NCBI RefSeq assembly: GCF_021155765.1
Contig: NC_060116.1
Span: 17,176,584 to 17,240,583 of the forward strand
Direction of reading: 5' to 3'
DNA from: Diprion similis
Lineage: Eukaryota > Arthropoda > Insecta > Hymenoptera > Diprionidae
DNA length: 64,000 nucleotides
Part shown: positions 1-52,511 of the stretch, one piece after another
Layout: each line of letters opens with the position of its first letter
How positions within the stretch are numbered: the stretch's first letter is position 1
Program-made: the position numbers and the translations under genes
Notes under the pieces: model-generated
What the model saw: only the letters and a program-made list of their open reading frames with translations
The model's database searches: none
Told to the model about the DNA's origin: nothing

Positions 1-1628
1 ACAACCACACCCTAGTTTTTATGACTAGTTCGTGTCTACTTTTACTTAGTATGCTTTTACTTCAACTGACATTTCCAATTTCCGACAGAGTTGTCGAGAT
101 TGACAACTCTGACATGTCACTTTTTCCAAATTTCACAGTCACAGGTAAGCCGAGGCACGTGCAGCGGTGTTCACGGTGTTTGCAATGCGTACATACCTAC
201 CGTATTTATGTATATTGAACAGTATGCATTTGCATTTCTTGCAAAGTTTAAAAAAAAATATCATTGATCTATAAATAGCATTGAACACATTCTATGAGTT
301 TTTTAAATTCTATCTATTGCAGGTTAAAAACAACATTATGTATAAATCGGAGGATAAGATATTATACGTTAGAATGTCCCTTTCACCTTGCCAAGGTGAA
401 CGGATGCGCGCAAAGGCCATCCGGTACCGAGATGGCAACTTTCCGTACAGTACATATTTGGTACCGCTAAAATGTCGAAGGAAGAGGATGGAAAAATCGG
501 TGGAAAATGGATCTCATCATGTCGGTATATTCCGAGATTACTCGAACTGCAATCGAACCGAGCTGCGTACTCGCTGGTCTTTCCAGAGTACGGAACCCTG
601 CAGACAGACTTCGGCCTGACGTTGTCGGCCTCGGTTTTATCGCGGTGAAAGTAAGATCCGATCGGCATCATCGTCTTCGGTCCAAAGCCCCGGCATTTTG
701 GTGTCCCCTTCGCGTCGTAGAAGGTGACGATATCCTTCCTCGCAACGCCGTTCTGCTGATCGATCGTGAAACGCGGATGTGCCAGCTGTGAGGTGCTCAC
801 AAATATGTCCAGATGCTTGTAGTATCCCGGCTGATTGGGAGGGACCGACGGGAACTCGTCCCGGCCCGAAGCCCGGACGGGACACGTCGATTCCTCGACG
901 GGACTTCTGAAGGGCACCGGTAAAGGATCAGGTCGAATCTTTTCGGGCATCGAGTAGTGGTCAGCTGTGAAAAGGCCTCGTGATAAGTCAGATTTTAATT
1001 GTCAAGAAATCCTATGATGCACATCATAGTTCAGTTGCAGTTTTCTTGAGTACGAAAGAACAAAAAGAAAGAACGTCCATAAGAAGTTATTTTTTTAATA
1101 TCGTTCGATCGGACGGCTTCTTTTATACTTTGGTTTTCAAAAACTTCCGACAACACGCACGCCCGTGGAATAGTTCATTACACCGATATACGCTTATAAG
1201 GCAAAAATGCGGACCTGTGCTGCTTTTGCAAACTTTCATCGGCATTACTGGATCTTTCATGCATTTTTCGTGAAGCGATCGAAGATCCGGATTGCCGAAA
1301 GAAAATCTGTTCATCCAATCATGGGCTTTTCGGTCGTCCCAGTACTTGGCGTCGAAAGTACGTTTGTAGATCGATTCGCTAGTTAAATCAAGCATCGCGG
1401 GATCTTGGGATCTGAGATCCTTTCTAGATTCTCTTTTCACGCGCAAGTGATTCAGGGGATGATCGACGCTGTTTTCATAGTAATGAGCACGTTTCGAGGA
1501 CGTTTGATAATGATCGTTAATGACCGCGGTCCGCGGCAAAGACGGCCTACACGTACAAGAAGCCATGACTCTTAAAAACTTGACAATTATTCGATACGAA
1601 ATTATGCGAATCAGACCGTCACGAGGAC
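1..1628. repeat. Left copy of a 1.63 kb identical duplication
   Basis: Bases 1-1628 recur at 4196-5823 with a constant offset of 4195 and no difference in the stretches I compared, including every open frame. The copies part after a shared GAGGAC: copy 1 continues GTATTG and copy 2 continues ACGGCT. The left edge lies at or beyond the window start. Each copy holds one complete two-exon gene plus about 60 bp upstream of its start codon, so the two genes have different promoters. The match could be a very recent tandem duplication with a 4195-bp period, or a haplotype/assembly duplicate. Confidence 0.95.
369..1566 (-). CDS. Unrecognised 315-aa protein, two exons (copy 1)
   Basis: The coding exons are 1566-1215 and 964-369, separated by a 250-bp intron. 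The acceptor TTTTCACAG is good; the donor CACAG/GTCCGC is weak but in phase 1, matching the acceptor and making Ala at the junction. The joined frame is 948 nt, giving 315 aa. I do not recognise the family. It has no signal peptide or membrane segment, is rich in Pro, Tyr, Arg and Cys, and contains short motifs such as PYSGKTSEYAARF and FDAKYWDDRKAHDWMNRF. These loosely recall axonemal microtubule-inner proteins, a speculation based on style rather than alignment. A sideroflexin gene lies upstream on the same strand, and an identical second copy lies at 4564-5761. An alternative donor a few codons earlier would shorten exon 1 slightly. Confidence 0.55.
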
Positions 1629-2383: not shown

Positions 2384-3936
2384 TCATAATCCCTTGTTAT
2401 AATAAACTCTGTTTGGAGTTCCTCCCGTCAATTCTTGATACTTGTCGTATTCCTCGTCGCACAATTTCATCATCCAAACGTGCATCGAGCTAAAACAGAT
2501 GCTTTACGTGACGGCAGAACTACCCCAAGAAACTGCAACATGGTAATAAAGTCGAACAATCCGACTAATCTTACTTTCGTTGAGGGTAGATCGCCAAGGC
2601 AGTAGGAATCATGAAACTGAGACTGTGGATCCGAATAAATTACAAGTCAGTCCTTATCGCTTTGAACGTTCATCGAAGGTGAGTGACTTCAAGATGACAA
2701 ACTTACAAGAGGCCACAGAGAGCCGTCTGCAGCGGAACTTCCAGCCTAGGTCGCATTTGATAGAAGCAATAGGGCTTCAGGATGTTCACGATTACCGGGA
2801 CCAGCATCATCCCTGGGGCCGCCATTACGATCCTTGTGACAACGCACTCCGAGATGCCCTTGAGAGCGGCTAATTTCGACTTCATTATCGACTTCTCGCT
2901 TTCCTTCGGGCCAACCTCGATCCCATGTTTAATTTCATTCTGCCTCATTATCGGAAGGTTGACCATATTTGCTGCTGCGACTGCAACGAACGGAGTCCAA
3001 CGCTGAAAGCCAATTGTGTGTAGGTATGTTACACTATCGTCACATCCGTTCAACGTCACATCCGAATTACTTTCATCAGATCCCCTCGATAAGACATCAT
3101 CTTCCGGAAGGTGAGGGCAGCAACGCTGCCAGCGGCTGTAGCTACAAGAAAAGCTGTTGCTATTCCGTTTTCATCGGTCTGATCTTCGTCCCGAGCATTT
3201 CTGTTCGAATAATTGACGATCGCGTTGAAGCCCTGATTTATCACCTGCCATCCGACGATTCCTCTCGCCGTTCTAACGGCAGAAATTCTTTCCTTCCTCA
3301 CTTGTCCTGAACTGGGTGTGTAGTTGAAATTATAATAAATTCTACGTGCGTACTTGTAGTAAGCCAGCATCCCAGCCGTGAGGAACAAACAACCTGGTAA
3401 CTGAAACGACATCCTCCCGATGACGTTCGTCAGCTGGCCATTGTCAGGGTGAAACGCACTGTCCCTTAATTTTTTAGCCCAGATTACGTCTTTCTTCGTC
3501 GTCCCGGTCGGTTCCTTTCCAGCCCTAATTCGCGCATCGCCGCAATTTGAGAAGTGGTGTGAGAGAAATGGCAGAAGAATATTGCATGCGTCGAATAGTA
3601 TAATGTCAACCGATTAATACAGTTTTGAAACGAGAGACTGAGTCGTGCGGATTAGGAGAAAAGATCCGGATATAATGGTCGCAAAATTTTTGAATACTTG
3701 TAATCCTCGCAAAGCTTCTTGGCTTCGCACAGCCTCTCTTCGTTGTAAAATATCGTTCGACAATCCGTTATAAAGGCAAAATGTTTCCAGCGACCGATGT
3801 ATGATTCCTGATCCCAGAGCGGTTCGTCCACGTTTATTCGTTCGTCTTTTTCTGGACCATTGTCAGTGGCTCCCTTTTTCTCATCTTTCCTTACATGCGA
3901 TGACACGAGTTGAGCGTGCATGCGAGCACCGTCCAT
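2384..3936 (-). CDS. Sideroflexin, divergent paralogue (353 aa, 6 exons)
   Basis: Coding exons run 3936-3698, 3524-3354, 3272-3071, 3002-2707, 2622-2575 and 2489-2384. The introns are 173, 81, 68, 84 and 85 bp, all GT-AG with matching phases, and the sum is 1062 nt. The family is mitochondrial inner-membrane carriers (human SFXN1 carries serine). Seen here: WDQESYIGRWKHF near the N-terminus, FNAIVNYSNRN, PFVAVAAAN, the MRQ motif, RIVMAAPGMM, and the C-terminal YYNKGL typical of the family. Oddities: the usual HPDTG reads HPDNG, there is a hydrophilic leader of about 33 residues before the first conserved block, and the segment equal to exons 4-6 of the other sideroflexin (12466-14921) is one uninterrupted exon. 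An acceptor just upstream of the ATG (near 3953) suggests a noncoding first exon. It is probably a faster-evolving, perhaps tissue-specific copy. Confidence 0.9.
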
Positions 3937-4195: not shown

Positions 4196-5823
4196 ACAAC
4201 CACACCCTAGTTTTTATGACTAGTTCGTGTCTACTTTTACTTAGTATGCTTTTACTTCAACTGACATTTCCAATTTCCGACAGAGTTGTCGAGATTGACA
4301 ACTCTGACATGTCACTTTTTCCAAATTTCACAGTCACAGGTAAGCCGAGGCACGTGCAGCGGTGTTCACGGTGTTTGCAATGCGTACATACCTACCGTAT
4401 TTATGTATATTGAACAGTATGCATTTGCATTTCTTGCAAAGTTTAAAAAAAAATATCATTGATCTATAAATAGCATTGAACACATTCTATGAGTTTTTTA
4501 AATTCTATCTATTGCAGGTTAAAAACAACATTATGTATAAATCGGAGGATAAGATATTATACGTTAGAATGTCCCTTTCACCTTGCCAAGGTGAACGGAT
4601 GCGCGCAAAGGCCATCCGGTACCGAGATGGCAACTTTCCGTACAGTACATATTTGGTACCGCTAAAATGTCGAAGGAAGAGGATGGAAAAATCGGTGGAA
4701 AATGGATCTCATCATGTCGGTATATTCCGAGATTACTCGAACTGCAATCGAACCGAGCTGCGTACTCGCTGGTCTTTCCAGAGTACGGAACCCTGCAGAC
4801 AGACTTCGGCCTGACGTTGTCGGCCTCGGTTTTATCGCGGTGAAAGTAAGATCCGATCGGCATCATCGTCTTCGGTCCAAAGCCCCGGCATTTTGGTGTC
4901 CCCTTCGCGTCGTAGAAGGTGACGATATCCTTCCTCGCAACGCCGTTCTGCTGATCGATCGTGAAACGCGGATGTGCCAGCTGTGAGGTGCTCACAAATA
5001 TGTCCAGATGCTTGTAGTATCCCGGCTGATTGGGAGGGACCGACGGGAACTCGTCCCGGCCCGAAGCCCGGACGGGACACGTCGATTCCTCGACGGGACT
5101 TCTGAAGGGCACCGGTAAAGGATCAGGTCGAATCTTTTCGGGCATCGAGTAGTGGTCAGCTGTGAAAAGGCCTCGTGATAAGTCAGATTTTAATTGTCAA
5201 GAAATCCTATGATGCACATCATAGTTCAGTTGCAGTTTTCTTGAGTACGAAAGAACAAAAAGAAAGAACGTCCATAAGAAGTTATTTTTTTAATATCGTT
5301 CGATCGGACGGCTTCTTTTATACTTTGGTTTTCAAAAACTTCCGACAACACGCACGCCCGTGGAATAGTTCATTACACCGATATACGCTTATAAGGCAAA
5401 AATGCGGACCTGTGCTGCTTTTGCAAACTTTCATCGGCATTACTGGATCTTTCATGCATTTTTCGTGAAGCGATCGAAGATCCGGATTGCCGAAAGAAAA
5501 TCTGTTCATCCAATCATGGGCTTTTCGGTCGTCCCAGTACTTGGCGTCGAAAGTACGTTTGTAGATCGATTCGCTAGTTAAATCAAGCATCGCGGGATCT
5601 TGGGATCTGAGATCCTTTCTAGATTCTCTTTTCACGCGCAAGTGATTCAGGGGATGATCGACGCTGTTTTCATAGTAATGAGCACGTTTCGAGGACGTTT
5701 GATAATGATCGTTAATGACCGCGGTCCGCGGCAAAGACGGCCTACACGTACAAGAAGCCATGACTCTTAAAAACTTGACAATTATTCGATACGAAATTAT
5801 GCGAATCAGACCGTCACGAGGAC
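4196..5823. repeat. Right copy of the 1.63 kb identical duplication
   Basis: This matches 1-1628 throughout. The right breakpoint is about 62 bp upstream of the start codon of the contained gene, so this copy is joined to a different upstream sequence. The 4195-bp period places the divergent sideroflexin between the copies, so another sideroflexin copy may lie just left of the window if whole units were duplicated. Confidence 0.95.
4564..5761 (-). CDS. Unrecognised 315-aa protein, two exons (copy 2)
   Basis: This is an intact second copy of the gene at 369-1566, with exons 5761-5410 and 5159-4564 and the same 250-bp intron and phase-1 junction. No frameshift or stop separates the copies, so either both are functional, the duplication is too young for decay, or one is an assembly duplicate. 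Its upstream DNA differs from that of copy 1 beyond about 60 bp and leads into a CpG-rich segment at 5.9-6.5 kb that could act as a new promoter. The function is unknown. Confidence 0.5.
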
Positions 5824-8033: not shown

Positions 8034-10906
8034 TTAATTTTTCCGACCACCACGTCTCTTCATAGAAGATGTACACTGCGGGCAGTACCATTTTCCTTTC
8101 GGTGGCGCAGATATTCCGACACATGGGTAATGGAACCATTCGAACGGACACTGAAACAAATTTAGTAGATTATTATCATTCCTAGTAAATATGGAAGGAA
8201 AACGCCAAATACTGTATCTGTTTTTACAGATAACGCATAGAACTAATGCAAGCATATTAACGCTTCGTACTCACATCCTGGTTATCACAAGCAACCATGT
8301 CTCCGTAAGACACTTGATTGCATATGCAATATCTCGGCTCGTTTGGGTCGTATGGCCAATCTGTATTATCGGCATCTGTCACAGTTGCTGTAGCTGTTAC
8401 TCCAGGTGGTGAGACAGGCTGTTGAACTGCCGCTGGTATCACGCTGGTACTAGGTACTGTAGTATTTACTTTTCTGAAAGCAAAGAAACACTAGTCAGTT
8501 TTATTGGCGGAGGTGTAGTTACACGAAATCCTTGTTTGCTTTGATCATTTTACCCTAATCGTTGTCTTATTTGACTAATTGAATTCTTCTCGCTCAAAGT
8601 GTACATACTTTTTATGTTTCTTGGTGGTTTCTTGAATCGCCGCTATAGCAGTCTGCGCGGCACCAGCTAATTCCCTACTAAATTCAGCCGCGTGAACACC
8701 TCCGGTATTGATGGCCTCGTAACTCGCCTTGAGACTAGCGGTTCGTCGTCCCTGCTGCATTTGTTGCGTTGCAGCAATTGCCTGCGACGCAGCAGCGGCT
8801 ATCGCGTTACCACCAGCCCCAATATGCCCTAGACCGTAGCTGACCGGACCAACTGTACTAGCTATTGCCGTCGGCGTGGACGGCAGAGTAGTTGCAATTA
8901 TTGGACCAGAATTAGCCGAGGCTGGTCGTGATTCTGGAAGACTTTGCGACGATTTTTCAATCACCAATCGTTTTTCTACCGATACCGAGGACGCGTTGGA
9001 ATCTCTCCGTTTCTCTGATCGTGCTGCAATGAAAAGTATCAATGAATACCAGATTGAAAATAGATGTACTTGAAGAATCGTTTGTGACAACTGTACTCAC
9101 AAGTACTTCAAAGTATAATTGGATAAAATTTATAACTTGTAAACCCACATTGTCTTAACGAGACTTCTTTGCAATTGTTACGAAGTTTTAAACTTTTGCT
9201 GGATAAAGAATAAGTTATGGTCAAAGCAAACTGTTTCGAATCTGATGACCTGGTTCACAAACCGTTTTTTGTCAGATTTCAAAACAGAATTAGGAATTTT
9301 AATATAATTTGATAATTCAAACAGTATACTGAATTCTGAATATTCTTCGGCTGAAATATTTTAGAAAAATTTTTATGCCGGATGAAGTAAGAAAATTACA
9401 ATATATCATTATTGATGACTCTAATTCAGGATTTACACTCACAGTGTCCGTGACTGTCCCGAGTTCTAGTAGAAGTAAAACTATAACGATTTTCTTTTTG
9501 ACTACTGTTGGTTGGCGGTTGATCCAATTCTAAGGATCGTTTTTCTAATATTTCTGTGATGCCTTTGTTGTCAGCCTCAAGTTCCATTTTGAATTTATGA
9601 AGCTCCTGGTCGAGTCGCCTCAAGTATCTATCCACCAAATCGTACATCTGATTAGCTAAGTGCACTTTTTCATCGGCATCTTCTAAAGTTTTATAATAGT
9701 CTTTTCGTATCGTTTCATATTCTGCCTCTTTGTCACTCGGCTTCATTTTCTTGGCGTTTGAAAAAAAAGTTTTCACCTTCTTCTCCAGGCTGTCCATCGA
9801 GTCTGAAAAGTTTACAACAGATTATTGAAACTACAAAGACAGTTGTGCTAGAATGAATCGATTCTTTCGCTGTATCCGTTAATCTTTTACATTACGATAC
9901 GCAGAGTAACAGGATTCGTACGCTTTTTGGAATTTGAAATTCCCTGACTTTTTCAGGTATTTCAGTCTGAAAACAGTATTTTTTTTTTTTTTTTTTTCTG
10001 ACAATTTTCATACAAAGTAATACCAATACCTTCAATATTACCTTGTAACTATTTTACCGTTTGACTATCAATTTACAACCAACATTCTGCGATTTGCCAT
10101 AAGAAAAAAAACGAAAAAAGGTTTTCTGTTAAGAAACATACATAGAATGTATGAAGTGGTGCGACGAAACAAAATTTTGAAGACAGTTTTTATTTTATTA
10201 AGAGCAATAGTACGTTCTATAAGAACGCGTTTAGTTCTTCGGCGGACTCAAAATTCCAGTCTTATTTTCAAAATTGCCTGACTTTTCTCTGCTGTTTTCC
10301 TGTGCGTACGAACCCTGAGTAACAGAGTAAAGAAAATAGTATACTTTGCACTCCCAGGTCCATTTCTCTCATCTCAGTGAATCTGTCACGCAGCTCCTGC
10401 GGAAGATGCTCGATCACTGGAAAAAGTAAGCGGAGTTAGAGTTTCGAGGCAACATAACCAAACAGGGGTTTAAATAAAAGGGATGAAAATTATGAGAAAA
10501 GCAAAGTTGGAGTAAAGCAATCGATTTATACGGGACTGAAAGCCCCCTGATACATTGTAGGAGTTAACAGTAGTGCAAAACTTGTTGGTAGTGAGGTTGT
10601 CTGAGTGTACTAAGCGTCCGAATAACATCGGCCTAACCTAAAAAAAACGAAATAATTGGCGTCTAATACAATCGAATAAAGTGCCGATATCGACGATGCG
10701 CTAAAAGAGAATGAAAATTTTCTGAGATTAAGAAACAGGCGAAACGATAACGTGATATTGATGGGATCTTAATTTCTACGGGGATATTCGTCAGGCTCGT
10801 CGACGCCGAATGCCTTCGGTAAGGTTAGTAGGTCCCTTGTGAGCTCGGGCTTCTGTTGTCGTCTCCGATTTTACGTACTTTCGACGTAATCTTCAAGATA
10901 CAGCAT
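8034..10906 (-). CDS. ING3: Inhibitor of growth protein 3 (ING3), 396 aa, 6 exons
   Basis: Exons run 10906-10879, 10416-10345, 9802-9443, 9023-8609, 8473-8275 and 8150-8034. All junctions are GT-AG with matching phase, giving 1191 nt. The protein starts MLYLEDYVE and has the ING histone-binding helices over about residues 1-105 ([26 protein letters not shown]). An Ala/Ser-rich linker follows with the ING3-specific [14 protein letters not shown]. The C-terminal PHD finger (about residues 340-388) has the complete C4HC3 set in CICNQ, CDNQDC, FHYPC and CPQC. In other animals ING3 is a subunit of the NuA4/TIP60 acetyltransferase and its PHD finger reads H3K4me3. At 396 aa it is close to the vertebrate length of about 418. 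It is divergent with CDC26, 590 bp apart, so they probably share a promoter. The first exon holds only nine codons plus one base. Confidence 0.96.
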
Positions 10907-12465: not shown

Positions 12466-14921
12466 TTATAATCCCTTGTTGAAGTACAGGAACTTTGGTA
12501 CTTTTCCATCCTTGCAATTCTTCTTCAATATCTCGTAATTCTCTGGCTCCCAGTTTTGAATAGTGCTCACCGCAATGGAGCTGCAAAAAGGAGAAGGTAT
12601 AGTTTTTTTCCTGTTTCCATTATCTTGGAAAAATAACATAATTCACGTACGTCACGATATAGACGTGAAACTTGAACTCACCAGTTTTGTGGGAACAGAG
12701 CGCACGCAGTTGGAACCATGAATGTTAGGCTAGAAAATAAAGTCACCCAATACATACTTGCCAGCTTTTCTTTGCATAACGTTGACGAGACTTTTTTGCG
12801 TATTCACTACTTACAAACATCCGACTAGCATAATTTGAATTGGTGCATGAAGGGGTTTAATTCTCTGCATCCAGCCATACGTTTCCAGCTTCGCCATAAT
12901 TGGGGGAAGAATCACTGCGCAAAGAAATAACGATTGAGATAACATTGTCGGTAAATGAGAAATTGACAATTTCTATGACAAACATTACTCACGCATTCCT
13001 GGGGCGCACATGACGATCCTTGAAAAAGTTACTTGACTGATACCCTTGACTGCAGCGATCTGTAATTAAATATGCGCGATCAAAGTCAGGTGTTAGCGGT
13101 TAAACAGGATTAATATCGCGATGATAAATCAGTCCTTGCTACAGTCGTAGTAGGTGCTCACCTTAGATTTTGTTAGCTTGTTACCGTTCTCGTCGCAGAC
13201 GTCAACGCCGTTTGCGATCTCGACTTGCCTCATCAATGGAATATTCGCGCAGTTTGCCGCGGCCACAGCAGCGAATGGGACGTATCTCTGAAAATGATCG
13301 CGTTTCATAAGACCTCGTGGTTTTTAAGAATATTTTCTCAATTCCATCAGACTCACGGCCATCAGAGGGTTCGCCCTATTCTGCCAGTAAGATTTGCATC
13401 CTATTGCTGTTATCATCGCGGCGGCCGTCGCGCTGAAGTACGCCGTGCATAGCTGAGTGGTGCTCACAGGGCTGTTCGCATTTCGGTTCGTGTAGTTCAC
13501 CAGGGCGTTAAAGGACTGGTTTACCCATTGCCAAAAGACAACCGCCGTCGTTGTTCTGTCAGGGATAATTGCGTGTGACAAAATAAATACCGCGTCTTCT
13601 TAACAACACATTTTGAAAACGGCATTCACCTGCCGCAGGGCGATGACATAACGTGAAGAAAATAACTGAATATACCTATAAAATTGGAGCATAGCTCCGG
13701 TGATGGCCATGCCTCCGGGTACCTGGAAAGACATTCTTCCAAATACATTTTGCAGGTCCCCAGTGTCCGGGTGAAACGCCGACTCGTAGAGTTTTTTTGC
13801 GTAAATTATTTGCTCACTGCTCGTCCCGGCGGGTTCCTTGCCCACTCTGAAACAAGACGAGGAAAGTTATTCCGCGTATACTGTCGAAAATCTTTGGCTA
13901 ATTTTAAATCGCCCAGTGCATCTTGTAACGCATTATATACATATTATAGGTATACACTTATTGTTAGTATAATGTGCAGAGGCGGTAAAATACCAGCTGC
14001 TGTATGTAGTTATGTATAACTAGTCGCGAGAATGTCCTTGTCCTCGCTGAACTTTAAGAATAGATTTCATCTAACCGATGCTCTTTGCACACTTCCGCAT
14101 ACAAGTACGATGTGCATCTGCGCAGACATTTTGCAAGGGGCACGGACCTTGATTCTCATATCCATACCGCTTTGCGCTTATTCCGTTCGCGATGGCGAAA
14201 AATAAAACTATATACGCCACTCGTTTAAAGGAAAAATTTATATAATATCACCGAGAGAGCAATCTACACAGCCTTGCGGTGTAAAAGTTAGAGACAGCGT
14301 GCAAATTACTTATTCCAATACTCAGCACTAACAATAAGCATAACGCTTTGAACGATAGTTCCAAGGTCCCAAGATTAAAAATCAGCTTCTATCAGTTATG
14401 AATGATAATAATTATGCCAGTTTGTTTATCAAAATTATGTACTGCTAATGGAGATTTACTATTACACAAACTGCGTCAATTTTTTTTTTTCTTTGTTTCT
14501 TATGTTTTAATACTTTTTTTTCTACAAATAACAATTACGCTTGGATATGCCTAGGCTGATTGATTGCGAATGCATTGAGCGGTTGTTCAATGCCGCATTG
14601 TTCGATACAGTGTGATGTAATTCGAAGCTTCGACACCTGGCACGAGGCGTCTTCCGCGGGCATAATTTAGAACTCTTTATGCAATAATACGCCTAATGCA
14701 ACTCGAATACTGACAATTAACCCATAGATTACACCGCGATACCTGAATTTTAATTACGAAAATTACCTGTATTGTTCGCACAGCTCCTTTGCCGCCAGGA
14801 GTTGCTCGCTGGAGGTGGTACAAGTCCTGAAATCCGTTACCCAAGCAAAATGCTTCCATCGTCCAGCGAAAGTGCTCAAATCCCAAAGCGGCTTATCCAG
14901 ATCTATCCTGTCCACTGCCAT
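12466..14921 (-). CDS. Sideroflexin, conventional copy (326 aa, 8 exons)
   Basis: Exons run 14921-14767, 13846-13676, 13555-13357, 13287-13162, 13059-12993, 12914-12815, 12729-12682 and 12580-12466. Every junction is GT-AG and in phase, summing to 981 nt. The 326-aa length is normal for SFXN1/2/3-type mitochondrial serine carriers. Seen: [13 protein letters not shown], the signature HPDTG at about residues 77-81, [27 protein letters not shown], the PFAAVAAAN segment followed by IPLMRQ, CAPGM, CALFPQN and the terminal YFNKGL. The start [14 protein letters not shown] is typical. A second, divergent paralogue is at 2384-3936; exons of 171 and 48 nt are the same length in both genes. A noncoding first exon is inferred near 15934-16080. 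Confidence 0.97.
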
Positions 14922-26700: not shown

Positions 26701-28845
26701 TGTCGAGGAAGAAGAGGTCCGTCGGTTCGATGGAGGATTTGTGGGACGAGTCGGTCTTCGAGGACCCCAGCAGGACGGCGAGGACGACTCCGGTTATCAA
26801 GATATCATTCGGCACGCAGGGTGAGGGGACTGTGATGAAGATACCCGCGAAGATACAGTGCAGCCCATTCGACAGGGACGGCGAAACCGATACCGAGGAC
26901 ACCCAGGACGCCGGCGTTGAGTTGCAGGAGCGCGACCCTCTCGAACTACTCGAGCAGGCTCCGATCGTCGACTTGACGCAGCTCGACGAGAACGAGGAGG
27001 AGCTGCGACACGAGGCTCAACTTCAGCAGCAGCTCGGCATCGGAGGGGGAAAGGACGCCAGTGCAAAGGCGGCCAAGCGGGCGCTCAAGAAGGCGAAGAA
27101 AGAGGCCAGGAGAAAGATGCTCGGTGGTGTTTCTCCGGCCAGGTCACCCTGCAACGGATCGCCAAGGTGAGGTACTTGCCATGCTGATTGACGATTTATA
27201 TTTCTAGAAGCACGTCGTCGCGAGAACGAGGAATCTTCCATTCTTTTACCTTCTTTTACCTTCTTTTACCTTCCACGGTTCCGGGTCCCGATTGTGTCTA
27301 TTTTACACACAATCATCTGTAACGCATAACGCCGTGGCGTCCTACTACGTACGACATGTCTATGATAACTGCAGCTTTCCACCTCGGCAACAGCGGTATT
27401 GACCGTAAATGACGAACAGGTGTCTTCTCATTAGGCGAGCTTGTCTCCGATTAAACTGCGGAATCGTTTTTGTCTTGAATGTTTAAATGTAACGTATACT
27501 TATACTCGTGTCGCTGCAGTTGTGTAAGCATACGGTCTGTAAAAAGCTTATGTTGTCGCGTTTTATTAATACGTTAATATCCACATATTATATTAGTCGA
27601 TAAATATCGGAAAAATATGAGTATCCAAATCGACCTCATTCCAAATCCTTGTGCATTTTCATATCCTCAGCGAAACCTGCAGAATAGATTATTAATGCAT
27701 AAATATCTATCCGGTTGATTGTCAGGTACAACCCGACCTCGGACGCGCTTTCCTACCACCGTCGGAGGCACAAGGTAAAGCACAAGAAGAAGCATAAGGA
27801 GGAACGAAAGCACAAGGGGGGTCAGGGTCAGAACGGCACGGTAGTCCAGCAGCAACAGCAGCAGGAGGAGGACGTGGTTGGAGGGGCGGTCGGGGATCAG
27901 CAGCACAAGTGGAACGTACTTCCGGGGGATTCTTACACGGCCATAAAGGAGCAGTGTCTGAAACAGAAGTTATCGATATCGCTGAAGAGGCTGAACACGA
28001 ACGCGTACGCGAGGTGCGATTACCCGGTGAGCAACGCCTCGTCAGGGTGCAAGAGTCCGGGCGCCAGTAGCGACGAGCTCAGCGAACAGGAGCCGGAAGT
28101 TGACGCTGGCGAAACGGCTCCGGACTTTCCACCCCCGGCGCATCCGCTCGTGATGCGACTCGCCGCCACCCCCGTAGCCCACTGCCTGACGGCCACCGGG
28201 AGGCGGATGGATGTCGGCGACGTCGTCTGGGGAAAGATTCACGGGTTTCCGTGGTGGCCTGGAAAGGTGATGATTATACTCTTGTCTTCCTCGATCACTG
28301 ATATGCTTCGAACCATTTATGTACGTGGCTGTGGCAAATGAACGATTACCTTATATACGTTTAAGGTGCTGAGCATCACCGTGTCCTGCAAGGAAGACGG
28401 CACCTCGTCCGGGCCCCAGGCTCATGTCGCCTGGTACGGATCGTCGACGAGCTCTCTCATGTCCTGCGATCAGCTGAGTCCGTTCCTCGAAACTTTCAAG
28501 GTTCGTTTTGTTATTCGGAACGTGGTGTAACAGATTTTAGAGAGGAAACACGTTACGTCTGATTAACAAGCTGCGAATAGATTGAGATTGCCGTATTTGC
28601 CAATTCACATTGGATCCCAAATTCGCCAACTTGAATTGTTTACTATAAATTTCTGTTCCGTAAGGCTTGATAACGAATATCCGTTTTGTCATCCACAGAC
28701 GCGGTTCAACAAGAAGAAACGCGGACCTTATAAGGAAGCCATTAGGCAGGCACAGACTGAAGCCAGGAGTCAGGCTACGCCGGATGAAGCCGATAGCGTA
28801 TTGAAGGTCTGCGGATCTCCCCGCGAAGTTAACGTCCTCTCGTGA
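19159..28845 (+). CDS. PWWP2A: PWWP domain-containing protein 2A/2B orthologue, 755 aa, 5 exons
   Basis: Exons run 19159-19310, 25874-27166, 27726-28266, 28366-28500 and 28699-28845, in phase throughout (2268 nt). Exon 1 encodes IVVVSFEHGTKLFQGALLD, matching the conserved N-terminal block of vertebrate PWWP2A. Exon 2 carries RLRPRQVLCSKC at about residues 116-127, the family's internal motif, then a long Ser/acidic, low-complexity region. Exon 3 has a Lys/His-rich tract (HKVKHKKKHKEERKHK) and ends in GKIHGFPWWPGK at about residues 651-662. Exons 4-5 complete the PWWP fold (HVAWYGSS, LSPFLETFK) and the basic tail RFNKKKRGPYKEAI. Vertebrate PWWP2A binds H2A.Z nucleosomes and H3K36me3 DNA and recruits part of the NuRD complex. 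Which vertebrate paralogue it matches best cannot be settled by eye. Confidence 0.93.
19311..25873 (+). other. PWWP2 intron 1 (6.56 kb)
   Basis: Bounded by donor AAAAG/GTAAGA and acceptor TTGTTGCAG. It holds microsatellites: a GAAA run near 19903-19923, a GCAG run at 22381-22413, a G11 run at 22754-22764 and a TA run at 23660-23702. A CpG-rich patch at 22.8-22.9 kb includes AAGATGGCCGACC, a YY1-like sequence with an ATG, and might be an alternative first exon. No other exon could be supported. Confidence 0.7.
23660..23720. repeat. (TA)n then (TGTA)n microsatellite
   Basis: About 21 TA units run into TGTATGTATGTATG. Shorter TA runs lie at 23508-23526 and 23877-23901. Confidence 0.9.
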
Positions 28846-42099: not shown

Positions 42100-43024
42100 T
42101 GAGAGAATTTTGTATGCCGTAAAACGTGTTTTCTGAAGCATTAAATACAGATTATTTATGTCATTTTAAACTAGTTTTTCCCTTTGATACTGAGTCTTTG
42201 TCCGACAGTCTATTCCCAGCGTAAATAATTTGAGCGTAAAAATTTTCTGCCGAACAAAGTGAGGCTGGCCACCTTGGATTTTTGGTAGAAATTTTGACAC
42301 CTTTGCATAATGCTAGTATCGTTTCTGCGATACACTACAGGGGTATAGTTTCAGAAAAGAAATCAATTGCGCGCGGTCTGTTATCGATTCAAACACGAAT
42401 TGAAATTTTTTTTCGAGATACGTAAAATCTGCAAAGAATTTTCACAGAGGCGGGGAGAAAAATTAAAGTAATCATAGCCACATGGTTTCGAACGCAGTCC
42501 AGTAAAGTGTGTTCATAATGTCTTGACCCTAGTGCTAGTGTTTGGGGGTCAATACATCGCAACTTGACAAGTTGATACAGACAATGAGAAAGAAAGGCAG
42601 GGACGAAGAAAAAACTTAATTGAACATTTCACAAGATGTCTTTGGTTATTATATTATCATAGTTTTCAAAGTAGGCTCTTGTTTTGGCCTGCGTGAAAGC
42701 GCGACACACTTCTGCGGAATACCAGACATGTTGTATGATAGTAACGTGTCACTATTTCATGCAACCCGAATTATCATAAATAAAGACTCTATTTTGTCCG
42801 GATTTCATTTCTACTTCCTCGGCTGTTCGACTTTTATTGTTCTGGTAGTCTTGTTCGCATCCTGGAGAGACAATTCGTCTGAAAGGAATGAACAAATCGA
42901 TTCCGGAACGGAAGTTCTTTGGTCTGAAATTAAGCATGACTATATAAAATTTCGGTGATTTTAAAAAGTGCTGCAATTATTTCTGTGAGGCACTATTCCA
43001 ACGTGATTTTGCGGGAAAAATCGA
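42100..43024. repeat. Decayed monomers at the left edge of the 312-bp satellite
   Basis: The segment 42860-43024 aligns to the satellite consensus with many mismatches (AAATCGATTCCGGAACG for AAATCGATTCCGAGACG, then AAAGTGCTGCAATTATTT for AAAGTGCTGCAATTGACT). Further left, 42255-42300 (AAAGTGAGGCTGGCCACC, then TTGGATTTTTGG) is a still more diverged match to AAAGTAAGGCTTACCCC and TTGGATTTTTGG. Divergence therefore increases away from the array. Confidence 0.7.
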
Positions 43025-46000
43025 ATAGGCGCAGTCCCAATACGCTGCGAGCGATATCTGAAAAGTTACGGCCGAAAAACTCATGATTTTCGTCGTCATT
43101 TCTTTGCTGCTGTTCCTACGCTCTTTTTGATGTGTTTTCTGAGTTCCTGGGGGTCGAATTACTCTAGAGATGGTCATACAAATCGATTCCGAGACGAGAA
43201 ATTTTCGGCTCCGAAAATGAGCAAAAAAGTAAGGCTTACCCCTTTGGATTTTTGGCGAAAATTTCGACGATTTCGGAAAGTGCTGCAATTGACTTTTGCA
43301 TGCCCTATTCCGACGTAATTTTGCGAGAGGAATCGAATGAGCGCAGTCCCAATACGCTGCGAGCGATATCTGAAAAGTTACTGCCGAAAAACTCATGATT
43401 TTCGTCGTCATTTCTTTGCTGCTGTTCCTACGCTCTTTTTGATGTGTTTTCTGAGTTCCTGGGGGTCGAATTACTCTAGAGATGGTCATACAAATCGATT
43501 CCGAGACGAGAAATTTTCGGCTTCGAAAATGAGCAAAAAAGTAAGGCTTACCCCTTTGGATTTTTGGCGAAAATTTCGACGATTTTGGAAAGTGCTGCAA
43601 TTGACTTTTGCATGCCCTGTTCCGACGTAATTTTGCGAGAGGAATCGAATGAGCGCAGTCCCAATACGCTGCGAGCGATATCTGAAAAGTTACGGCCGAA
43701 AAACTCATGATTTTCGTCGTCATTTCTTTGCTGCTGTTCCTACGCTCTTTTTGATGTGTTTTCTGAGTTCCTGGGGGTTGAATTACTCTAAAGAAGGTCA
43801 TACAAATCGATTCCGAGACGAGAAATTTTCGGCTCCGAAAATGAGCAAAAAAGTAAGGCTTACCCCTTTGGATTTTTGGCGAAAATTTCGACGATTTCGG
43901 AAAGTGCTGCAATTGACTTTTGCATGCCCTATTCCGACGTAATTTTGCGGAAGGAATCGAATGAGCGCAGTCCCAATACGCTGCGAGCGATATCTGAAAA
44001 GTTACGGCCGAAAAACTCATGATTTTCGTCGTAATTTCTTTGCTGCTGGTGCTACGCTCTTTTTGATGTGTTTTCTGAGTTCCTGGGAGTCGAATTACTC
44101 TAGAGATGGTCATACGAATCGATTCCGAGACGAGAAATTTTCGGCTCCGAAAATGAGCAAAAAAGTAAGGCTTACCCCTTTGGATTTTTGGCGAAAATTA
44201 CGACGATTTCGGAAAGTGCTGCAATTGACTTTTGCATGCCCTATTCCGACGTAATTTTGCGGAAGGAATCGAATGAGCGCAGTCCCAATACGCTGCGAGC
44301 GATATCTGAAAAGTTACGGCCGAAAAACTCATGATTTTCGTCGTCATTTCTTTGCTGCTGGTCCTACGCTCTTTTTGATGTGTTTTCTGAGTTCCTGGGG
44401 GTCGAATTACTCTAGAGATGGTCATACAAATCGATTCCGAGACGAGAAATTTTCGGCTCCGAAAATGAGCAAAAAAGTAAGGCTTACCCCTTTGGATTTT
44501 TGGCGAAAATTTCGACGATTTCGGAAAGTGCTGCAATTGACTTTTGCATGCCCTATTCCGACGTAATTTTGCGAGAGGAATCGAATGAGCGCAGTCCCAA
44601 TACGCTGCGAGCGATATCTGAAAAGTTACGGCCAAAAAACTCATGATTTTCGTCGTAATTTCTCTGCTGCTGGTGCTACGCTCTTTTTGATGTGTTTTCT
44701 GAGTTCCTGGGAGTCGAATTACTCTAGAGATGGTCATACGAATCGATTCCGAGACGAGAAATTTTCGGCTCCAAAAATGAGCAAAAAAGTAAGGCTTACC
44801 CCTTTGGATTTTTGGCGAAAATTTCGACGATTTTGGGAAGTGCTGCAATTGACTTTTGCATGCCCTATTCCGACGTAATTTTGCGAGAGGAATCGAATGA
44901 GCGCAGTCCCAATACGCTGCGAGCGATATCTGAAAAGTTACGGCCGAAAAACTCATGATTTTCGTCGTAATTTCTTTGCTGCTGGTGCTACGCTCTTTTT
45001 GATGTGTTTTCTGAGTTCCTGGGAGTCGAATTACTCTAGAGATGGTCATACGAATCGATTCCGAGACGAGAAATTTTCGGCTCCGAAAATGAGCAAAAAA
45101 GTAAGGCTTACCCCTTTGGATTTTTGGCGAAAATTTCGACGATTTCGGAAAGTGCTGCAATTGACTTTTGCATGCCCTATTCCGACGTAATTTTGCGGAA
45201 GGAATCGAATGAGCGCAGTCCCAATACGCTGCGAGCGATATCTGAAAAGTTACGGCCGAAAAACTCATGATTTTCGTCGTCATTTCTTTGCTGCTGGTCC
45301 TACGCTCTTTTTGATGTGTTTTCTGAGTTCCTGGGGGTCGAATTACTCTAGAGATGGTCATACAAATCGATTCCGAGACGAGAAATTTTCGGCTCCGAAA
45401 ATGAGCAAAAAAGTAAGGCTTACCCCTTTGGATTTTTGGCGAAAATTTCGACGATTTCGGAAAGTGCTGCAATTGACTTTTGCATGCCCTATTCCGACGT
45501 AATTTTGCGAGAGGAATCGAATGAGCGCAGTCCCAATACGCTGCGAGCGATATCTGAAAAGTTACGGCCGAAAAACTCATGATTTTCGTCGTAATTTCTC
45601 TGCTGCTGGTGCTACGCTCTTTGTGATGTGTTTTCTGAGTTCCTGGGAGTCGAATTACTCTAGAGATGGTCATACGAATCGATTCCGAGACGAGAAATTT
45701 TCGGCTCCGAAAATGAGCAAAAAAGTAAGGCTTACCCCTTTGGATTTTTGGCGAAAATTTCGACGATTTTGGGAAGTGCTGCAATTGACTTTTGCATGCC
45801 CTATTCCGACGTAATTTTGCGAGAGGAATCGAATGAGCGCAGTCCCAATACGCTGCGAGCGATATCTGAAAAGTTACTGCCGAAAAACTCATGATTTTCG
45901 TCGTCATTTCTTTGCTGCTGTTCCTACGCTCTTTTTGATGTGTTTTCTGAGTTCCTGGGGGTCGAATTACTCTAGAGATGGTCATACAAATCGATTCCGA

Positions 46001-49000
46001 GACGAGAAATTTTCGGCTTCGAAAATGAGCAAAAAAGTAAGGCTTACCCCTTTGGATTTTTGGCGAAAATTTCGACGATTTTGGAAAGTGCTGCAATTGA
46101 CTTTTGCATGCCCTGTTCCGACGTAATTTTGCGAGAGGAATCGAATGAGCGCAGTCCCAATACGCTGCGAGCGATATCTGAAAAGTTACGGCCGAAAAAC
46201 TCATGATTTTCGTCGTCATTTCTTTGCTGCTGGTCCTACGCTCTTTTTGATGTGTTTTCTGAGTTCCTGGGGGTCGAATTACACTAGAGATGGTCATACA
46301 AATCGATTCCGAGACGAGAAATTTTCGGCTCCGAAAATGAGCAAAAAAGTAAGGCTTACCCCTTTGGATTTTTGGCGAAAATTTCGACGATTTCGGAAAG
46401 TGCTGCAATTGACTTTTGCATGCCCTATTCCGACGTAATTTTGCGAGAGGAATCGAATGAGCGCAGTCCCAATACGCTGCGAGCGATATCTGAAAAGTTA
46501 CGGCCGAAAAACTCATGATTTTCGTCGTAATTTCTCTGCTGCTGGTGCTACGCTCTTTTTGATGTGTTTTCTGAGTTCCTGGGAGTCGAATTACTCTAGA
46601 GATGGTCATACGAATCGATTCCGAGACGAGAAATTTTCGGCTCCGAAAATGAGCAAAAAAGTAAGGCTTACCCCTTTGGATTTTTGGCGAAAATTTCGAC
46701 GATTTCGGAAAGTGCTGCAATTGACTTTTGCATGCCCTGTTCCGACGTAATTTTGCGAGAGGAATCGAATGAGCGCAGTCCCAATACGCTGCGAGCGATA
46801 TCTGAAAAGTTACGGCCGAAAAACTCATGATTTTCGTCGTCATTTCTTTGCTGCTGTTCCTACGCTCTTTTTGATGTGTTTTCTGAGTTCCTGGGGGTTG
46901 AATTACTCTAGAGAAGGTCATACAAATCGATTCCGAGACGAGAAATTTTCGGCTCCGAAAATGAGCAAAAAAGTAAGGCTTACCCCTTTGGATTTTTGGC
47001 GAAAATTTCGACGATTTCGGAAAGTGCTGCAATTGACTTTTGCATGCCCTATTCCGACGTAATTTTGCGAGAGGAATCGAATGAGCGCAGTCCCAATACG
47101 CTGCGAGCGATATCTGAAAAGTTACGGCCGAAAAACTCATGATTTTCGTCGTAATTTCTTTGCTGCTGGTGCTACGCTCTTTTTGATGTGTTTTCTGAGT
47201 TCCTGGGAGTCGAATTACTCTAGAGATGGTCATACGAATCGATTCCGAGACGAGAAATTTTCGGCTCCGAAAATGAGCAAAAAAGTAAGGCTTACCCCTT
47301 TGGATTTTTGGCGAAAATTTCGACGATTTCGGAAAGTGCTGCAATTGACTTTTGCATGCCCTATTCCGACGTAATTTTGCGGAAGGAATCGAATGAGTGC
47401 AGTCCCAATACGCTGCGAGCGATATCTGAAAAGTTACGGCCGAAAAACTCATGATTTTCGTCGTCATTTCTTTGCTGCTGGTCCTACGCTCTTTTTGATG
47501 TGTTTTCTGAGTTCCTGGGGGTCGAATTACTCTAGAGATGGTCATACAAATCGATTCCGAGACGAGAAATTTTCGGCTCCGAAAATGAGCAAAAAAGTAA
47601 GGCTTACCCCTTTGGATTTTTGGCGAAAATTTCGACGATTTCGGAAAGTGCTGCAATTGACTTTTGCATGCCCTATTCCGACGTAATTTTGCGAGAGGAA
47701 TCGAATGAGCGCAGTCCCAATACGCTGCGAGCGATATCTGAAAAGTTACGGCCGAAAAACTCATGATTTTCGTCGTAATTACTCTGCTGCTGGTGCTACG
47801 CTCTTTTTGATGTGTTTTCTGAGTTCCTGGGAGTCGAATTACTCTAGAGATGGTCATACGAATCGATTCCGAGACGAGAAATTTTCGGCTCCGAAAATGA
47901 GCAAAAAAGTAAGGCTTACCCCTTTGGATTTTTGGCGAAAATTTCGACGATTTCGGAAAGTGCTGCAATTGACTTTTGCATGCCCTATTCCGACGTAATT
48001 TTGCGAGAGGAATCGAATGAGCGCAGTCCCAATACGCTGCGAGCGATATCTGAAAAGTTACGGCCGAAAAACTCATGATTTTCGTCGTAATTTCTCTGCT
48101 GCTGGTGCTACGCTCTTTTTGATGTGTTTTCTGAGTTCCTGGGAGTCGAATTACTCTAGAGATGGTCATACGAATCGATTCCGAGACGAGAAATTTTCGG
48201 CTCCGAAAATGAGCAAAAAAGTAAGGCTTACCCCTTTGGATTTTTGGCGAAAATTTCGACGATTTTGGGAAGTGCTGCAATTGACTTTTGCATGCCCTAT
48301 TCCGACGTAATTTTGCGAGAGGAATCGAATGAGCGCAGTCCCAATACGCTGCGAGCGATATCTGAAAAGTTACTGCCGAAAAACTCATGATTTTCGTCGT
48401 CATTTCTTTGCTGCTGTTCCTACGCTCTTTTTGATGTGTTTTCTGAGTTCCTGGGGGTCGAATTACTCTAGAGATGGTCATACAAATCGATTCCGAGACG
48501 AGAAATTTTCGGCTTCGAAAATGAGCAAAAAAGTAAGGCTTACCCCTTTGGATTTTTGGCGAAAATTTCGACGATTTTGGAAAGTGCTGCAATTGACTTT
48601 TGCATGCCCTGTTCCGACGTAATTTTGCGAGAGGAATCGAATGAGCGCAGTCCCAATACGCTGCGAGCGATATCTGAAAAGTTACGGCCGAAAAACTCAT
48701 GATTTTCGTCGTCATTTCTTTGCTGCTGGTCCTACGCTCTTTTTGATGTGTTTTCTGAGTTCCTGGGGGTCGAATTACACTAGAGATGGTCATACAAATC
48801 GATTCCGAGACGAGAAATTTTCGGCTCCGAAAATGAGCAAAAAAGTAAGGCTTACCCCTTTGGATTTTTGGCGAAAATTTCGACGATTTCGGAAAGTGCT
48901 GCAATTGACTTTTGCATGCCCTATTCCGACGTAATTTTGCGAGAGGAATCGAATGAGCGCAGTCCCAATACGCTGCGAGCGATATCTGAAAAGTTACGGC

Positions 49001-51985
49001 CGAAAAACTCATGATTTTCGTCGTAATTTCTCTGCTGCTGGTGCTACGCTCTTTTTGATGTGTTTTCTGAGTTCCTGGGAGTCGAATTACTCTAGAGATG
49101 GTCATACGAATCGATTCCGAGACGAGAAATTTTCGGCTCCGAAAATGAGCAAAAAAGTAAGGCTTACCCCTTTGGATTTTTGGCGAAAATTTCGACGATT
49201 TTGGGAAGTGCTGCAATTGACTTTTGCATGCCCTATTCCGACGTAATTTTGCGAGAGGAATCGAATGAGCGCAGTCCCAATACGCTGCGAGCGATATCTG
49301 AAAAGTTACTGCCGAAAAACTCATGATTTTCGTCGTCATTTCTTTGCTGCTGTTCCTACGCTCTTTTTGATGTGTTTTCTGAGTTCCTGGGGGTCGAATT
49401 ACTCTAGAGATGGTCATACAAATCGATTCCGAGACGAGAAATTTTCGGCTTCGAAAATGAGCAAAAAAGTAAGGCTTACCCCTTTGGATTTTTGGCGAAA
49501 ATTTCGACGATTTTGGAAAGTGCTGCAATTGACTTTTGCATGCCCTGTTCCGACGTAATTTTGCGAGAGGAATCGAATGAGCGCAGTCCCAATACGCTGC
49601 GAGCGATATCTGAAAAGTTACGGCCGAAAAACTCATGATTTTCGTCGTCATTTCTTTGCTGCTGGTCCTACGCTCTTTTTGATGTGTTTTCTGAGTTCCT
49701 GGGGGTCGAATTACACTAGAGATGGTCATACAAATCGATTCCGAGACGAGAAATTTTCGGCTCCGAAAATGAGCAAAAAAGTAAGGCTTACCCCTTTGGA
49801 TTTTTGGCGAAAATTTCGACGATTTCGGAAAGTGCTGCAATTGACTTTTGCATGCCCTATTCCGACGTAATTTTGCGAGAGGAATCGAATGAGCGCAGTC
49901 CCAATACGCTGCGAGCGATATCTGAAAAGTTACGGCCGACAAACTCATGATTTTCGTCGTAATTTCTCTGCTGCTGGTGCTACGCTCTTTTTGATGTGTT
50001 TTCTGAGTTCCTGGGAGTCGAATTACTCTAGAGATGGTCATACGAATCGATTCCGAGACGAGAAATTTTCGGCTCCGAAAATGAGCAAAAAAGTAAGGCT
50101 TACCCCTTTGGATTTTTGGCGAAAATTTCGACGATTTCGGAAAGTGCTGCAATTGACTTTTGCATGCCCTGTTCCGACGTAATTTTGCGAGAGGAATCGA
50201 ATGAGCGCAGTCCCAATACGCTGCGAGCGATATCTGAAAAGTTACGGCCGAAAAACTCATGATTTTCGTCGTCATTTCTTTGCTGCTGTTCCTACGCTCT
50301 TTTTGATGTGTTTTCTGAGTTCCTGGGGGTTGAATTACTCTAGAGAAGGTCATACAAATCGATTCCGAGACGAGAAATTTTCGGCTCCGAAAATGAGCAA
50401 AAAAGTAAGGCTTACCCCTTTGGATTTTTGGCGAAAATTTCGACGATTTCGGAAAGTGCTGCAATTGACTTTTGCATGCCCTATTCCGACGTAATTTTGC
50501 GAGAGGAATCGAATGAGCGCAGTCCCAATACGCTGCGAGCGATATCTGAAAAGTTACGGCCGAAAAACTCATGATTTTCGTCGTAATTTCTTTGCTGCTG
50601 GTGCTACGCTCTTTTTGATGTGTTTTCTGAGTTCCTGGGGGTCGAATTACTCTAGAGATGGTCATACAAATCGATTCCGAGACGAGAAATTTTCGGCTCC
50701 GAAAATGAGCAAAAAAGTAAGGCTTACCCCTTTGGATTTTTGGCGAAAATTTCGACGATTTCGGAAAGTGCTGCAATTGACTTTTGCATGCCCTATTCCG
50801 ACGTAATTTTGCGAGAGGAATCGAATGAGCGCAGTCCCAATACGCTGCGAGCGATATCTGAAAAGTTACGGCCGAAAAACTCATGATTTTCGTCGTAATT
50901 ACTCTGCTGCTGGTGCTACGCTCTTTTTGATGTGTTTTCTGAGTTCCTGGGAGTCGAATTACTCTAGAGATGGTCATACGAATCGATTCCGAGACGAGAA
51001 ATTTTCGGCTCCGAAAATGAGCAAAAAAGTAAGGCTTACCCCTTTGGATTTTTGGCGAAAATTTCGACGATTTTGGGAAGTGCTGCAATTGACTTTTGCA
51101 TGCCCTATTCCGACGTAATTTTGCGAGAGGAATCGAATGAGCGCAGTCCCAATACGCTGCGAGCGATATCTGAAAAGTTACTGCCGAAAAACTCATGATT
51201 TTCGTCGTCATTTCTTTGCTGCTGTTCCTACGCTCTTTTTGATGTGTTTTCTGAGTTCCTGGGGGTCGAATTACTCTAGAGATGGTCATACAAATCGATT
51301 CCGAGACGAGAAATTTTCGGCTCTGAAAATGACCAAAAAAGTAAGGCTTACCCCTTTGGATTTTTGGCGAAAATTTCGACGATTTTGGAAAGTGCTGCAA
51401 TCGACTTTTGCATGCCCTATTCCGACGTAATTTTGCGAGAGGAATCGAATGAGCGCAGTCCCAATACGCTGCGAGCGATATCTGAAAAGTTACGGCCGAA
51501 AAACTCATGATTTTCGTCGTCATTTCTTTGCTGCTGTTCCTACGCTCTTTTTGATGTGTTTTCTGAGTTCCTGAGGGTCGAATTACTCTAGAGATGGTCA
51601 TACAAATCGATCCCGAGACGAGAAATTTTCGGCTCCGAAAATGAGCAAAAAAGTAAGGCCTACCCCTTTGGATTTTTGGCGAAAATTTCGACGATTTTGG
51701 AGAGTGCTGCAATTGACTTTTGCATGACCTATCCTGACGTAATTTTGCGAGAGGAATCGAATGAGCGCAGTCCCAATACGCTGCGAGCGATATCTGAAAA
51801 GTTACGGCCGAAAAACTAATGATTTCCTTCGTCATTTCTTTGCTGCTGGTCCGACGCTCCATTTGATGTGTTTTCTGAGTTCCTGGGGGTCGAATTACTC
51901 TAGAGATGGTCATACAAATCGATTCCGAAACGAGAAATTTTCGGCTCCGAAAATGAGCAACAAAGTAAGGCCTTATTCGTCTAGA
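43025..51985. repeat. Satellite array, 312-bp monomers, about 29 copies, higher-order structure
   Basis: Monomers begin at 43025 and every 312 bases to 51761 (29 starts). The last is cut off near 51978, where AAAGTAAGGCC gives way to unrelated DNA. No length change occurs between monomers. Diagnostic variants define classes; I use plus-strand translation tags. C = KSYCRK and SASKM; A' = NYTRDG; B' = FSAAGAT with RKV and CPVPT; D = GLNYSREG; E = FFAAGAT; A = AAGPT with NYSRDG; F = NYSAAGAT; B = FSAAGAT with WEV. From 45833 the order is C-A'-B'-D-E-A-F-B, an eight-monomer unit of 2496 bp that recurs in shortened forms. The monomer holds the 18-bp dyad ATTTTCGGCTCCGAAAAT. The family is unknown to me. 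Confidence 0.95.
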
Positions 51986-52511
51986 TACATCTTTAGTCAA
52001 CGCGGAAATTGATCCGATGCAAAATATACATGCTGATAGCGTCGCAGAATTCTCATTCAACCATTTTCCGAAAGTCGCACAAATGTGAAAGATTCAGGTA
52101 TTCTTTCGTTTTTCTCATAACAGAACTGATGACAAAGTTTTTTTTTCTCCTACATCTTTTTTATTTCCATAAAATATATTCAGACCTTGCAGGTGGCGGA
52201 ATCATGGCACAAATCAAACTCTCATTCCATTGACTCTCATCCTGTCATTTTCAAATTTCGCATCTCTAGACGTGACAAAACTGATTCTGCTTCTAAAACT
52301 ACGTTGAAATTGTACGTATACTGATACACGATTAATCCGATTTGATTGCAAAGAAATGTTGTACTGTTATAGAGGTATGGACGATAATACGAATAGGAAA
52401 AGAAAGTACGCGTTTCATGTTTTTTTTCAATAATACACAATTTTATTTTTTGTAGAATCGAGAAAATAATGAGAACAAAACGATGCATCGTGAATAGTTA
52501 CAATTAATATG

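Follow-up and report, generated by a model that had tools for sequence, protein, structure and literature searches.

Copied blocks of ordered monomers in a 312-bp satellite array of Diprion similis

Described satellites and the Diprion array

Dispersed satellite arrays of insects, and their homogenization in an array-specific or chromosome-specific manner, have already been published (PMC10048060, PMC7642928, PMC5844308). The array considered here consists of 312-bp monomers and lies in a 64,000-nucleotide stretch of the Diprion similis genome (hereafter the window: positions 17176584-17240583 of contig C12, NC_060116.1, in a 269-Mb assembly of 60 contigs). In Drosophila, the 1.688 (359-bp) satellite has a monomer of about 360 or 190 bp and forms many arrays in both euchromatin and heterochromatin; most of its euchromatic repeats are reported to show no array-specific clustering, and the heterochromatic ones to cluster by chromosome or by array (PMC7642928). 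TCAST, the major satellite of Tribolium castaneum, is reported to make up 35% of the genome (PMC3411249) and to be dispersed near genes, its euchromatic copies being preferentially single repeats (PMC5844308); its higher-order repeats (HORs), reported by Vlahovic et al. 2017 as cited in PMC7598501, mix subfamilies and extraneous elements. For alpha satellite, a review gives an identity of ~70% between monomers and of up to 97-100% between HOR copies and describes the HORs as mostly chromosome-specific, for one family (PMC8122249).

The Diprion family resembles 1.688 in that a complex monomer forms many dispersed arrays, a likeness of organization; it appears to differ in that all 13 sampled arrays cluster separately, whereas most of the euchromatic 1.688 copies are reported as unclustered by array (PMC7642928). 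With TCAST, it shares the status of a major, dispersed insect satellite with HORs, but it occupies roughly 4.6% of the genome rather than the 35% reported there and forms kilobase arrays instead of single euchromatic repeats. The array in the window shares ordered monomer classes and hybrid monomers with alpha satellite. However, its neighboring monomers are ~2.5% (7.6/312) rather than ~30% apart, and it contains one full unit, so that the likeness to primate alpha satellite claimed in a sequence-only reading of the window is not supported as stated.

The evidence presented below makes it highly probable that the array in the window belongs to a non-coding 312-bp satellite that is both abundant and dispersed, that words unique to this array mark two of its monomer groups, and that in it blocks were copied, gains and losses of whole monomers left hybrids, and misaligned exchange took place within the array.

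Blocks and hybrid monomers

Tandem Repeats Finder (TRF) delineates a single array with a period of 312 bp that comprises 28.9 head-to-tail copies with 97% matches and 0% indels (Table 1). The satellite that the sequence-only reading had placed at 43025-51985 is thus confirmed, with the actual start 79 bp and the actual end 14 bp earlier; a detached degenerate fragment lies 631 bp upstream of the array.

From 43337 on, through four blocks to a further C monomer, the class order proposed in that reading agrees with the variants of the individual monomers; the class labels were taken over from it rather than assigned blind, and were checked against the differences of each monomer from the consensus. 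The classes fall into two super-groups, one with 73A, 91G, 128A and 156G (B, B', E and F) and the other without these variants (A, A', C and D). At monomer lags, exact self-matches reach a maximum of 1,143 bp (lag 3). When the 25 core monomers were permuted 2000 times, 3 permutations attained this length, and 11 attained the observed four exact matches of at least 600 bp. Among the 24 neighboring class pairs, 17 recur, which none of 20,000 shuffles equalled, the classes having been assigned after the data were seen.

Each block was aligned to block 2 with jumps by whole monomers permitted (mosaic alignment), and shuffled monomer orders of block 2 served as the control. Over its 1,872 bp, block 4 differs from block 2 by 14, 3 and 1 mismatches when 0, 1 and 2 jumps are allowed, each jump spanning one monomer, whereas the shuffled orders yielded with two jumps a minimum of 4 and a median of 10 mismatches, none of the 60 equalling the single mismatch of block 4. 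The variants agree with these jumps: the monomer at 50513 has 73A and 91G of class E and lacks 128A, 156G, 302G and 303A, and the monomer at 50825 joins 77A of class F with 250T and 253G of class B. Thus, the claim of two hybrids, each of which removes 312 bp, is borne out.

Block 3 differs from block 2 by 3 mismatches without a jump and by none with one five-monomer jump, as it should if B' is joined to B. This join stands, but the derivation of the block by loss is less secure: the block can be explained at least as simply by a 936-bp duplication, given the 1,143-bp exact match at lag 3, as by a 1,560-bp deletion. The duplication would produce the identical join and is tentatively preferred because it requires one event fewer. 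Block 1 is less tidy than the others, with a three-monomer duplication (E A B E A B) and 9 mismatches to block 2 remaining even with four jumps. Models of unequal exchange predict diverged array edges; the last two full monomers carry 3 and 7 private changes, absent from every other monomer of the window, and all others carry 0-2.

Table 1. Features of the window and of other arrays of the family (positions are those of the window unless a contig is given)
Feature	Position	Strand	Basis or test
312-bp satellite array	42946-51971	+	TRF; block limits from BLAST to a three-fold consensus
Detached degenerate satellite fragment, 62 bp, monomer positions 199-260	42253-42314	+	BLAST to the three-fold consensus
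Block 1: C D E A B E A B	43337-45832	+	Per-monomer variants
Block 2: C A' B' D E A F B, 2,496 bp, sole complete eight-monomer unit	45833-48328	+	Per-monomer variants
Block 3: C A' B, 936 bp, junction within 48797-49202	48329-49264	+	Mosaic alignment; interval from variants
Block 4: C A' B' D E/A F/B, 1,872 bp, block 2 minus two monomers	49265-51136	+	Mosaic alignment
Hybrid E/A, switch within 50604-50640	50513-50824	+	Variants; jump placed at 50604
Hybrid F/B, switch within 50902-51074	50825-51136	+	Variants; jump placed at 50902
Right edge: variant C, diverged monomer, partial monomer	51137-51971	+	Private changes
Open frame of 2,620 aa, apparently accidental, not a gene	44198-52060	-	Open reading frame list; openness compared across arrays
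L029, 11-mer HOR, 3,427-bp unit	C1:129001-139000		P 0.0005
L030, lag 23, 6.1 differences against 10.0 at lag 1	C12:16.85 Mb		P 0.0005
L023, lag 12			Best-lag test, P<0.01
L018, lag 10			Best-lag test, P<0.01
L022, lag 9			Best-lag test, P 0.011
L025, lag 12			Best-lag test, P 0.04
Sideroflexin-like exons, two sets ~10 kb apart	2706-3613, 13327-13599	-	Exon scan
ING-type protein exon, between the two sideroflexin-like sets	9429-9821		Exon scan
PHD match of the ING-type gene, below its cut-off	8037-8270		Exon scan
PWWP protein exon	27715-28341		Exon scan

The satellite family in the genome

A 22-bp core of the monomer matches 39,392 places in the assembly with at most 2 mismatches (20,051 and 19,341 on the two strands), and its reversed control matches none. 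Counting 312 bp per core match, the family amounts to roughly 12.3 Mb, or 4.6% of the 269-Mb assembly, an estimate that would miss diverged copies; the array in the window holds less than 0.1% of the family copies. The matches are found on both strands and on at least 11 contigs (C1, C2, C3, C4, C6, C7, C8, C10, C11, C12 and C13), and the arrays, which range from kilobases to tens of kilobases, occupy many chromosome positions. The array is therefore one of many and not the short isolated block suggested by the window. The family fits the definition of satellite DNA in its long tandem unit, its high copy number in the genome and its apparently non-coding nature. A survey of the literature on 312-bp repeats found no insect satellite by title or abstract start, which does not make this satellite undescribed.

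All arrays compared, including that of the window, comprise 13 arrays with 570 monomers, of which 542 belong to the 12 other arrays; three loci on C3 (L018, L019 and L028) were counted as one array, with the stretches between them left out. For a midpoint-rooted FastTree tree of 187 monomers, the window contributed its full set of 28, a short array its full set of 5, and the other 11 arrays 14 apiece. Each of the 13 arrays forms its own clade in this tree, and for all 187 monomers the nearest neighbors within the sample belong to the array of the monomer itself. The variants that distinguish the monomer groups were also traced in longer words. A 33-base word that includes 73A and 91G has 12 matches in the entire assembly with at most 1 mismatch, and for a 28-base word that includes 46T there are 5 exact matches; all of these are located in the window array, and neither reversed control has any. 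The linked set 73A-91G-128A-156G occurs in 11 of the 28 window monomers and in none of the 542 others. Hence the words that mark two of the monomer groups are found only here, blocks are copied with hybrids at the joins, and there is no mixing among the sampled arrays.

By consensus, the closest sampled array is at C12:16.85 Mb (7 differences; 10 kb of array read), followed by those at C12:17.50 Mb and C1:10.35 Mb (15 each), and the farthest is at C1:0.13 Mb (46). Best-lag tests were performed for 20 of 23 loci, three being too short, and gave P<0.01 for 4 and P<0.05 for 6 of the 20 (Table 1), with P of at least 0.05 for the other 14, including the window. The clearest HOR is L029, where monomers differ by 8.1 positions at lag 11, by 15.6 at lag 22, by 21.7 at lag 1, and by between 19 and 24 at all remaining lags through lag 24; family-word matches around this locus extend from about 115 to 154 kb of the C1 start, which bears TTAGG telomere repeats.

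Relatives of the monomer are also spaced at multiples of 304 bp (C11:3420820-3433945) and of 311 bp (C3:3532188-3544992), which suggests sub-families that differ in unit length. The consensus contains an 18-bp inverted repeat at positions 177-194, with 8-bp arms and a 2-bp loop. Along the monomer, positions 266-285 form a hypervariable stretch (0.0008 of permutations), and the most conserved 20-base window is not unusual (0.58 of permutations). The CENP-B box is not required of all centromeres, and the consensus used here is the mammalian one; none of its 9 matches within 1 mismatch in the window lies in the array, with 12.9 expected in the window by chance.

The window array is located ~0.6 Mb from the end of the 17.8-Mb contig C12, and the CpG observed/expected ratio outside the array is 1.39, a value that, like the TTAGG repeats, is compatible with an insect and perhaps with Hymenoptera. 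Coding exons were recognized in the window, all of them away from the array; the scan covered 10 open stretches, of which 6 matched, leaving out 30-60 kb and taking two stretches from 60-62 kb. A direct duplication (window positions 1-1592 and 4196-5787) has a spacing of 4,195 bp and no mismatches over the first 1,500 bases; each copy contains one long open frame of 193 aa and another of 147 aa, and the first copy touches the window start. A scan of the window against Rfam gave no match.

Regularity, origin and significance of the array

The sequence-only reading described the array as an eight-monomer HOR. Monomers eight apart are closer than adjacent ones (5.0 and 7.62 mean differences per pair, respectively), the comparison on which that reading had rested its own refutation, and one full and one shortened unit lie in register. 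However, lags 3 and 11 are closer still, with 4.77 and 4.07 differences, the uncorrected permutation P values being 0.96, 0.017, 0.003 and 0.002 for lags 1, 8, 3 and 11, respectively. The best-lag statistic gives P = 0.03 for the 25 core monomers. When all 28 are included and lags start at 2, P is 0.21 and no single lag is significant. Where a unit repeated in tandem at least twice would be expected of an HOR, we observed one full 8-mer, one 6-mer derivative and one 3-mer. Divergence within the unit (7.6/312 between neighbors) exceeds that between unit copies (1 in 1,872 bp for blocks 2 and 4 after two jumps), a contrast much weaker in degree than in alpha satellite. The block identity tests are firmer than the lag tests; hence the copying of blocks in a fixed order is real, but a period of eight is neither dominant nor settled. 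The ordered blocks of the earlier description thus stand and its regular HOR is not supported as stated: the array reflects a block that was duplicated recently and then underwent losses. That it is the short remnant of a genuine, regular eight-monomer HOR of the alpha-satellite kind is unlikely, considering, in addition to the lags, the single complete unit, the small distance between neighboring monomers, and the clear HORs that the same test detects at L029 and L030.

The presence of arrays on many contigs and on both strands would also be compatible with carriage by a transposable element, such as a Helitron with internal tandem repeats, and tandem repeats carried by such elements have been reported for molluscs (PMC5139131). 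This origin is improbable here. The flanks of the window array (42700-42945 and 51972-52260) have no other non-satellite match among about 150 of the 232 and about 150 of the 201 matches listed, respectively, and the main blocks of the sampled arrays, with detached fragments excluded, start at monomer phases 1, 40, 51, 199 (twice), 219, 234 and 245 and end at phases 27, 55, 93, 180, 211, 247 and 312, so that neither shared flanks nor a fixed end phase was found in the window flanks and the ends of the sampled arrays. The ends of the window array (phases 234 and 211) omit a 22-bp stretch, positions 212-233, that takes in positions 214-230, where the monomer is best conserved; site-specific insertion was considered on these grounds and dropped, the other main blocks ending elsewhere. 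A similarly small probability attaches to the monomer order being an artefact of assembly within a repeat. Very similar copies are prone to mis-joins, and private changes are present in only 9 of the 28 monomers, which counts against the order as read; however, the maximal exact repeat of 1,143 bp at monomer lags and the 9-kb array itself are short relative to long reads, and the start of C1 in TTAGG repeats suggests a long-read assembly. Finally, the minus-strand frame that is open through 2,620 codons, together with a monomer length that is a multiple of three, could point to a protein of 104-residue repeats. This possibility can be practically dismissed: the frame is open in 27 of the 28 window monomers but in only 2 of the 454 gap-free monomers of ten other arrays, on which account a coding repeat was rejected, and the 817 distinct changes in the frame show neither a deficit of stops (48 seen, 37.3 expected) nor an excess of synonymous changes (190 seen, 208.5 expected). 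The frame appears to be accidental: with a monomer length divisible by three and copies so similar, a single open unit is enough to keep the frame open throughout the array, and the chance of some open frame per simulated unit is 1.3-3.5% with the composition of the window and 11-20% with that of the monomer.

Hybrid monomers that result from misaligned exchange also occur in alpha satellite. In the Diprion array, near-identical monomers would misalign, and homologous exchange, for example, unequal sister-chromatid exchange, would add or remove whole monomers; intra-strand or replication-based equivalents would fit the same scheme. Such exchange would act inside arrays and not between them, two of the monomer groups probably arose locally, as supported by the genome-wide word searches, and the ordered blocks would be a by-product of turnover, with no specific function visible in the array. 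Unequal exchange, as originally proposed, is supported in the form of unequal or otherwise misaligned exchange, with hybrids at whole-monomer offsets.

Several further points weigh against this account. The second jump in block 4 saves just two mismatches, and the E/A monomer, which takes a basal position to group B in the tree, could be an ancestral intermediate that gained only 73A and 91G. The first full monomer has 2 private changes, no more than one interior monomer. In the midpoint-rooted tree, the window clade has a local support of 0.0 (on a range to 1.0). Among the 17 class-marking variants, only 46T, 77A and 91G are not seen in any of the 542 monomers from the 12 other arrays; the remaining 14 occur there, 80C and 250T as the usual state, so that single variants are no evidence of local origin. 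Judging by the sequence, unequal crossover appears indistinguishable from single-strand annealing, break-induced replication and slippage; a review allows for a role of break-induced replication as well as of unequal exchange (PMC8122249).

Exchange within one array nevertheless remains the preferred reading, and the array is a useful modeling case of a well-known process rather than evidence of a new mechanism. The origin of HORs is usually read from old, large centromeric arrays in which, in our view, the initial stages are difficult to make out. In the 9 kb of this array, early stages can be followed base by base, and clearer periods are found in sister arrays of the same genome; the strict clustering by array is a difference from 1.688 that is worth following. 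We tentatively consider the possibility that a major satellite has split into many arrays, each homogenized alone, without exchange between arrays, and several evolving an HOR period of their own (11, 12, 23 etc.). If so, this genome would be a natural replicate experiment on how HORs start, from the single block copy in the window to the settled 11-mer.

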